A stretch of 64,000 nt of DNA, from the NCBI GenBank assembly GCA_019218315.1, contig JAHUUI010000003.1, positions 392,443 to 456,442 of the forward strand, read 5' to 3'. This DNA is from Cardiobacteriaceae bacterium TAE3-ERU3 (GTDB lineage Bacteria > Pseudomonadota > Gammaproteobacteria > Cardiobacteriales > Cardiobacteriaceae). This document shows, piece after piece, positions 59,236 through 60,200 of the stretch. Every line of letters starts with the position of its first letter. Position 1 is the first letter of the stretch. Both the position numbers and the translations under genes were made by a program. A model generated the notes under the pieces. It saw only the letters and a program-made list of their open reading frames with translations. It had not been told where the DNA came from and did not search any database.

Positions 59236-59262
59236 CAAGCAGCCATACGGCTGCTTTTTTAT
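59236..59262 (+). terminator. Terminator after infA
   Basis: Hairpin agcagcc-atac-ggctgct followed by six T residues. Confidence 0.85.
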
Positions 59263-59285: not shown

Positions 59286-59340
59286 TTGCATCCCACTCAA
59301 TAAAGCCTATAATAAACCAACAATTCAACACATGTTGTAA
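59286..59340 (+). promoter_or_regulatory. Promoter and likely operator of the metal-sensor operon
   Basis: -35 TTGCAT (59286-59291), 16-base spacer, -10 TATAAT (59308-59313). Between the predicted start and the ATG lies TTCAACACATGTTGTAA (59324-59340), with arms CAACA and TGTTG. Its position makes it a good site for self-repression by the ArsR/SmtB product. Confidence 0.6.
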
Positions 59341-59696
59341 TGATGAAACTAGAACAACCTGATTGCCAAGCTGATGAACACAACATCAATACACTAAGCA
59401 GCATTAATGATGACGTCCTTGAAAATACCGTCACCATCCTTAGTGCTATGGCTGATACGGCTAGACTAAGCATACTTATACTCTTGCACGAAGGTGGCGA
59501 AAGCTGTGTTTCAGCACTCGCTAAACGCCTTGGTGATAAAACAAATACTGTTTCGATGCGCCTTAAAAAGCTCCACGATGCAGGGCTGGTCAACAAACGA
59601 CGCGATGCCAAACATATTTTTTACAGTTTAAAAGACGACCATATCGTTACGATTGTGCGCAACGCTATAGAGCACGCACAGCACTACAGTCAATAA
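59340..59696 (+). CDS. ArsR/SmtB-family metal-responsive repressor
   Basis: 118 residues. Winged helix (about 30-97) with recognition region KTNTVSMRLKKLHDAGLV. The last helix carries Asp99, His101, His112 and His115, the exact spacing of the SmtB/CzrA alpha-5 zinc site (Asp104, His106, His117, Glu120). A cysteine (Cys56) lies in the SCVSALA segment. Zn2+ or Co2+ is therefore the expected ligand that releases DNA. It starts directly downstream of the operator without a clear SD, and is followed 25 bases later by the His/Cys-rich gene, which it should control. Confidence 0.85.
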   Translation: MMKLEQPDCQADEHNINTLSSINDDVLENTVTILSAMADTARLSILILLHEGGESCVSALAKRLGDKTNTVSMRLKKLHDAGLVNKRRDAKHIFYSLKDDHIVTIVRNAIEHAQHYSQ

Positions 59697-59721
59697 TCCA
59701 AAATACTTCAGGAGCATAAAC

Positions 59722-60141
59722 ATGAGCTGCAATACCCACGATAATCATCCTCACACTCACGGCAAAGATTGCGAGCACACTGCGATCAAGCACAATGACC
59801 ACATCGACTACCTGCACGACGGCCACCTTCATCACCCACATGCCGACCATGTAGACGAGCATAAGCTCGAAGTCGACAGCACTAATCCAGCAGATTGCAC
59901 CCAGCCCAAGGCTTGTGGCTGTGTCGCTGGTTGTGATTGCGACTGCAGCAACGATTGCAGCTGCGACTGCGCAGAAGACAACGCTCAAGGCTGCCATACA
60001 GCTGACCATACTCATGGTCCGGATTGCGGTCATGAAGCCGTCCCACATGGTGACCACGTTGACTACCTCGTCAATGGCCGCCTTCACCACCCACATGGTG
60101 ACCACTGTGATGACCATGGCCCGGTGGAAGTAGTGAGCTAA
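59722..60141 (+). CDS. Two-lobed His-rich protein with metallothionein-like cysteine core
   Basis: 139 residues with 25 His and 14 Cys, very acidic, no signal peptide, so probably cytosolic. Residues 13-47 and 98-132 are ungapped repeats of the same 35-residue unit (HGxDCxHxAxxHxDHxDYLxxGxLHHPH, then DH..H). Between them residues 59-83 hold nine cysteines in CxC and CxxxC spacing (GCVAGCDCDCSNDCSCDC), like a small metallothionein. Short one-unit His-rich relatives exist in Proteobacteria, but I do not know this duplicated arrangement. Expected role: zinc or other soft-metal storage or buffering under control of the upstream sensor. SD CAGGAG and a perfect terminator frame the gene. Confidence 0.75.
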   Translation: MSCNTHDNHPHTHGKDCEHTAIKHNDHIDYLHDGHLHHPHADHVDEHKLEVDSTNPADCTQPKACGCVAGCDCDCSNDCSCDCAEDNAQGCHTADHTHGPDCGHEAVPHGDHVDYLVNGRLHHPHGDHCDDHGPVEVVS

Positions 60142-60168
60142 ACTACGCAACTCTATTGATATAGATAT

Positions 60169-60200
60169 GCAAAAAGCCCGATTATTCGGGCTTTTTGCAT
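60169..60200 (+). terminator. Terminator of the metal-sensor operon
   Basis: Nearly perfect palindrome: gcaaaaagcccga, short loop, tcgggctttttgc. It can act on both strands. Confidence 0.88.

Follow-up and report, generated by a model that had tools for sequence, protein, structure and literature searches.

A two-gene operon of a Cardiobacteriaceae bacterium couples an SmtB-type repressor to a two-lobe, histidine-rich protein with a cysteine-rich insert

The window, i.e. the whole stretch of 64,000 nucleotides analysed (Cardiobacteriaceae bacterium TAE3-ERU3, contig JAHUUI010000003.1), contains at 59286-60196 a two-gene unit composed of a promoter, an operator palindrome, an SmtB-type repressor gene, a gene for a 139-residue His/Cys protein and a terminator. 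We read this unit, with a probability of about 0.6, as an autoregulated metal-buffer operon, in which SmtB-type repression would be relieved by metal excess and the product would be a two-lobe buffer protein with an added thiolate site. The protein would most likely buffer Zn, possibly Cd, once derepressed in metal excess. It belongs to a two-lobe family that is both widespread and uncurated, and this family is a more important find than the Cys-core variant carried by the window. The open reading frames, promoter, operator and terminator all lie where a preliminary description of this DNA had placed them, as follows.

59286-59313, + strand: promoter, with -35 TTGCAT (59286-59291), a 16-bp spacer and -10 TATAAT (59308-59313); TTGCA and CTATAAT are kept in the Rappaport locus
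59322-59341, + strand: operator AATTCAACACATGTTGTAAT, an imperfect 9-2-9 palindrome with halves AATTCAACA-CA-TGTTGTAAT, overlapping the repressor start codon; same place in Rappaport
59340-59696, + strand: ArsR/SmtB-family repressor, predicted to be metal-sensing, 118 aa, alpha-5 ligands D99, H101, H112 and H115 (profile and SmtB relative)
59710-59714, + strand: Shine-Dalgarno-like AGGAG of the second gene; AAGGAG at the equivalent place in Rappaport
59722-60141, + strand: two-lobe His-rich protein with Cys-rich insert, 139 aa (open reading frame and alignment of relatives)
59758-59862, + strand: lobe 1, residues 13-47, predicted strands 20-24, 27-32, 35-39 and 44-47
59917-59994, + strand: Cys-rich insert, about residues 66-91 (~26), GCVAGCDCDCSNDCSCDCAEDNAQGC, missing from the other family members examined, Rappaport israeli apart
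60013-60117, + strand: lobe 2, residues 98-132, predicted strands 105-109, 112-117, 120-124 and 129-134
60171-60196, + strand: symmetrical intrinsic terminator between the operon and a convergent ABC transporter gene (hairpin folding against shuffles)

The promoter with its operator-like palindrome, as first described, is indeed present. Operator and -10 are conserved between the window and Rappaport israeli, another member of the Cardiobacteriaceae, while the flanking DNA is little alike; the Rappaport operator, at the equivalent place, is a perfect palindrome, AATTCAACATGTGTTGAATT, whereas that of the window is imperfect. The operon promoter is absent from the list of a promoter scanner and its -35 hexamer matches at 3/6 positions, so that this assignment, as far as sequence comparison goes, is better supported by the conservation in Rappaport than by the scanner. 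As the operator spans the expected transcription start and the first repressor codon, the leader would be very short, with no Shine-Dalgarno sequence to be made out in it, and the region 59316-59343 thus suggests a near-leaderless repressor mRNA. The Rappaport repressor gene has about 50 extra bases in its leader, where a Shine-Dalgarno sequence is present. At the other end of the unit, the terminator is as strong as had been proposed: its 11-bp stem has a folding energy of -16.3 kcal/mol (z -4.9) and no shuffled sequence is equally stable.

The operon is flanked upstream by infA, which has its own terminator (59237-59256), and downstream by the convergent ABC transporter gene, which shares the symmetrical terminator. 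The repressor/His pair is absent at the equivalent place of a congener (G001), where other genes adjoin the ABC transporter gene, also between it and gcvT, and this congener has no match to the His/Cys gene. In Rappaport, the neighbours of the pair differ from those in the window.

The repressor matches NCBIfam HTH_metalloreg at 3.2e-21, above the curated cut-off, and Pfam HTH_5, also above cut-off, consistent with a winged-helix ArsR fold. Its closest solved relative is SmtB (1r1t, 1.1e-14), with which D99/H101/H112/H115 align on D/H/H/E, in keeping with the alpha-5 set D-x-H ... H-x2-(E/H). When the window repressor, the copy in its own genome, SmtB and relatives adjoining His-rich genes are aligned (48 rows), D99, H101 and H112 are identical in 48/48, and the fourth position holds the Glu of SmtB in 42 rows or His in 5, which makes 47/48. 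By this alignment the site is of the alpha-5 Zn/Co type, and the complete SmtB-like sensor site announced earlier thus holds. In SmtB and CzrA, filling with metal lowers DNA affinity, and by analogy we infer that metal induces the release of this repressor from the predicted operator. At low metal, an SmtB-type dimer would occupy the palindrome that spans the transcription start, blocking both genes; Zn(II) (or Cd/Co) would then fill the alpha-5 sites, the repressor would leave the operator, and the conserved His, Asp and Cys residues of the induced protein's folded beta lobes would bind metal. A two-mismatch scan of the genome with the operator sequence gives no second good site, nor any other match at 0-1 mismatch, and the repressor therefore probably controls this operon alone.

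The absence of a linked efflux pump had been taken to mean a storage-only response, which is right for the operon and does not extend to the cell: the same genome contains, unlinked to the operon, three Cation_efflux (CDF) matches and two full heavy-metal P1B-type ATPases, together with two Fur-family regulators. No second close operator match suggests that the repressor controls the CDF or P1B-ATPase genes. The operon would be one buffering layer in a cell from which metal is probably exported as well.

The nearest described counterpart is the SmtB-SmtA system of Synechococcus, in which smtB is divergent from smtA (PMC7387436). The operon shares with it an SmtB-type alpha-5 sensor, an operator at the promoter and a single, here predicted, metal-sequestering product; unlike in Synechococcus, repressor and product genes are co-directional, and the product matches no metallothionein model. 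The operon is real and well formed and follows the SmtB-metallothionein pattern, but its product is unrelated.

This product contains 14 Cys and 25 His in 139 residues. Its two 35-residue repeats align without gap and are identical at 22/35 positions, above all of 5000 residue shuffles (mean 4.6, maximum 12), so the repeat structure originally noticed stands. Both repeats carry the lobe motif HxHGxxCGHxxxxHxxHxDYLxxGxLHHxHxxHxxxH that defines the family. AlphaFold2, run without metal on a 60-member alignment from which two rows from plasmid records were left out, models the greater part of the two lobes at a pLDDT near 90, with four strands each, and the Cys insert, to which most of the poor order is confined, at about 50. 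Each lobe is thus predicted to be a small beta domain. No solved structure matches this model significantly in a Foldseek search, and no solved protein in the PDB matches the two-lobe family profile. The metallothionein models and structures of Pfam, NCBIfam and PDB are not matched by the His/Cys protein either; its matches to teneurins in Pfam and PDB (E 0.05-0.2) are judged to be a Cys-rich coincidence. Composition and conservation agree with the metal-binding character first attributed to the protein. The image of a metal "sponge" is more doubtful, as the lobes are strongly conserved and confidently modelled, which favours a defined domain. In the light of the model, a thiolate tether joining folded His domains would fit better.

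The first reading had further set the duplication against one-unit His-rich proteins of Proteobacteria and taken it as new here. That comparison is wrong, since the lobe duplication is general in the family: 101/102 open reading frames with the lobe motif have two recognisable lobes, the remaining one having a second, more diverged lobe, and the family occurs in other phyla too. One scan of species genomes gives 457 relatives, the best 80 of which come from Gamma-, Alpha- and Betaproteobacteria, Myxococcota, Planctomycetota, Gemmatimonadota, Verrucomicrobiota and Actinobacteria, the non-proteobacterial ones being metagenome bins, which may not all be assigned correctly. In evenly drawn samples, the window's own genome counted, the family is found in 12/369 genomes of the class and 7/398 of the phylum; a class-wide profile search with the Rappaport genome at its centre likewise gives 12/369. 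The 60 aligned members share 30 invariant columns, mostly His, Cys, Asp and Gly. Neither Pfam nor NCBIfam has a model for them, the stray matches having E values of about 0.01 and above. The literature on SmtB/ArsR with His-rich proteins, reviews and zinc regulon papers, a coverage outside which most subscription papers fall, yielded no study of the family. A typical relative is the "hypothetical protein" WP_072015868.1 of Pantoea ananatis, encoded behind an ArsR/SmtB gene, which has the same two lobes and motifs and, as is often the case, the same kind of upstream regulator.

The unusual part of the window protein is the insert, which on sequence comparison makes the Cys-core form a lineage-specific variant. 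The nine Cys reported for residues 59-83 are all located as claimed (59, 65, 67, 71, 73, 75, 79, 81, 83), and the insert has in addition C91. As nearly all members of the two-lobe family have C59, and C65 is common among them, the extra Cys are eight. The gap between the lobe cores, usually of 28-36 residues with 1-4 Cys in the "hypothetical protein" relatives, reaches 59 residues with 11 Cys in the window and 60 with 11 in Rappaport israeli. The short linker is usual without being established as essential, and the alignment covers each lobe in full; the window protein is therefore a variant, with no reason for its exclusion from the family. While two lobes are common, the repeat-core-repeat layout with a Cys core is limited, among the 101 two-lobe open reading frames examined, to the window and Rappaport israeli, and four further members found in Cardiobacteriaceae (G003, G004, G007, G009) are without insert; as about a hundred relatives were covered, further carriers may exist.

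Between these two carriers, every Cys within residues 56-92 is retained (10/10, 8 of them through different codons), against 8/26 of the other residues, His excluded, a split whose chance is 1.7e-4 (hypergeometric). Synonymous sites are saturated, to the point that dS is not computable, and the retention of the Cys thus points to selection on them rather than to too little time. Neutral growth of a TGY-GAY-like repeat, in a linker that tolerates it, would agree with the low-complexity DNA and with the presence of the core in two genera only among those examined; it is nevertheless very improbable, and already disfavoured, as the Cys columns are kept in both genera while the other residues have changed freely. 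It is possible that the ten conserved Cys form a metal-thiolate cluster: the linker would have acquired in this lineage a Cys-rich stretch (CxCxC twice), hence a metallothionein-like thiolate site, which could provide more capacity or more affinity for softer metals. Alternatively, the core could bind a different metal, Cu(I) or Cd, or be a redox switch, leaving Zn to the His lobes. The chemistry of CxCxC, unlike that of the His sites, and the poor order of the core in the model speak for this proposal, which we nonetheless hold to be improbable given the alpha-5 Zn/Co-type site of the linked sensor.

The regulatory context of the family is diverse. An SmtB-type gene lies directly upstream on the same strand in 45/102 distinct loci, about half of the family, the environmental member of Bradyrhizobium for instance, being without one, and most of the other SmtB-linked loci lack the operator sequence of the window. 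A family-wide operator ATTCYA-N10-TRGAAT, found with <=3 mismatches in 15/45 loci versus about 8 in shuffles, is a moderate excess that we do not claim. In loci without SmtB-type gene, 4 Zur-like sites with 3 mismatches are found versus 0.35 expected, too weak an excess for a Zur box as a general alternative control; such sites (3-4 mismatches) lie upstream of SmtB-less His genes of Moraxella (L073/L064), Alysiella (L086), Halomonas (L075) and Neisseria (L090). Neighbours of relatives elsewhere, part of them named by eye, include a zinc ABC importer, COG0523-type GTPase, CDF-type exporter and DksA-like genes. Zur-like sites or zinc-uptake neighbours in SmtB-less loci would mean expression in zinc deficiency there, and the role of the family, in excess or in shortage, may differ between lineages. 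In Rappaport (L013, 1493-2327), a gene recognised by eye as CDF-type cation efflux is located some 1.2 kb ahead of the pair; it is split over two frames, and perhaps broken or affected by a sequencing error.

A rather unlikely alternative is that the two-lobe protein is not a detoxifying buffer but a zinc-allocation chaperone or reserve, feeding clients or transporters, with its level tuned by the SmtB link. Zinc importer, COG0523-type and DksA-like neighbours and the Zur-like sites of a few ArsR-less loci would agree with it, as would the strong conservation of non-ligand residues (DYL, DG, L before HH) and the predicted fold, which suggest a specific surface. However, the Zur-like sites are weak, and here the gene stands alone behind an SmtB-type sensor, with no client linked. 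We retain the autoregulated metal buffer as the preferred reading.

Two other known proteins invite comparison. The Pseudomonas metallothionein PflQ2 MT is described as having a Cys9His cluster and being encoded in an operon without metal-responsive regulator (PMC7387436, citing Habjanic 2018). Like it, the window protein is small with mixed, here putative, Cys/His metal ligands; as far as that account goes, PflQ2 MT has no His lobes. The lobes seemingly have in common with the pneumococcal histidine triad (Pht) domain an HGDH-type motif. Pneumococcal histidine-triad zinc domains are the top Foldseek rows for the model, at a non-significant E of 4.6, with a VIA Z below 2, and no Pfam match to the Pht profile is found up to E 10. 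Since sequence, profile and fold comparisons are negative, kinship is not claimed and the motif is a lead only.

It is conceivable, though we would rather not count on it, that this widespread and undescribed family, with its folded pairs of His lobes, gives bacteria a means of buffering zinc in addition to metallothioneins and efflux. Its control would be of the SmtB type (excess) or of the Zur type (deficiency), and in the Cardiobacteriaceae the gain of a thiolate cluster would have turned it into a two-chemistry metal store. With one member characterised, many "hypothetical proteins" would receive a function, and a bacterial zinc buffer built on folded His domains could come to light; the window variant and the natural insert-less members, such as the 115-residue protein of Salinicola, allow a direct comparison of what the thiolate insert adds.

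A few family members are on plasmids, and one plasmid copy adjoins a zinc ABC importer. Diverged relatives occur outside Proteobacteria on Pediococcus damnosus and Enterococcus plasmids (H19-H21, H16). One relative (L154, 3001-3342) lies in a 47.6-kb contig classed as viral, which is possibly host DNA. Finally, the N-terminus of a diverged member (L120, G471; open reading frame overlapping 1501-1653), MKRLLALASFTVIVATAANA, resembles a signal peptide, which suggests that this version is periplasmic.
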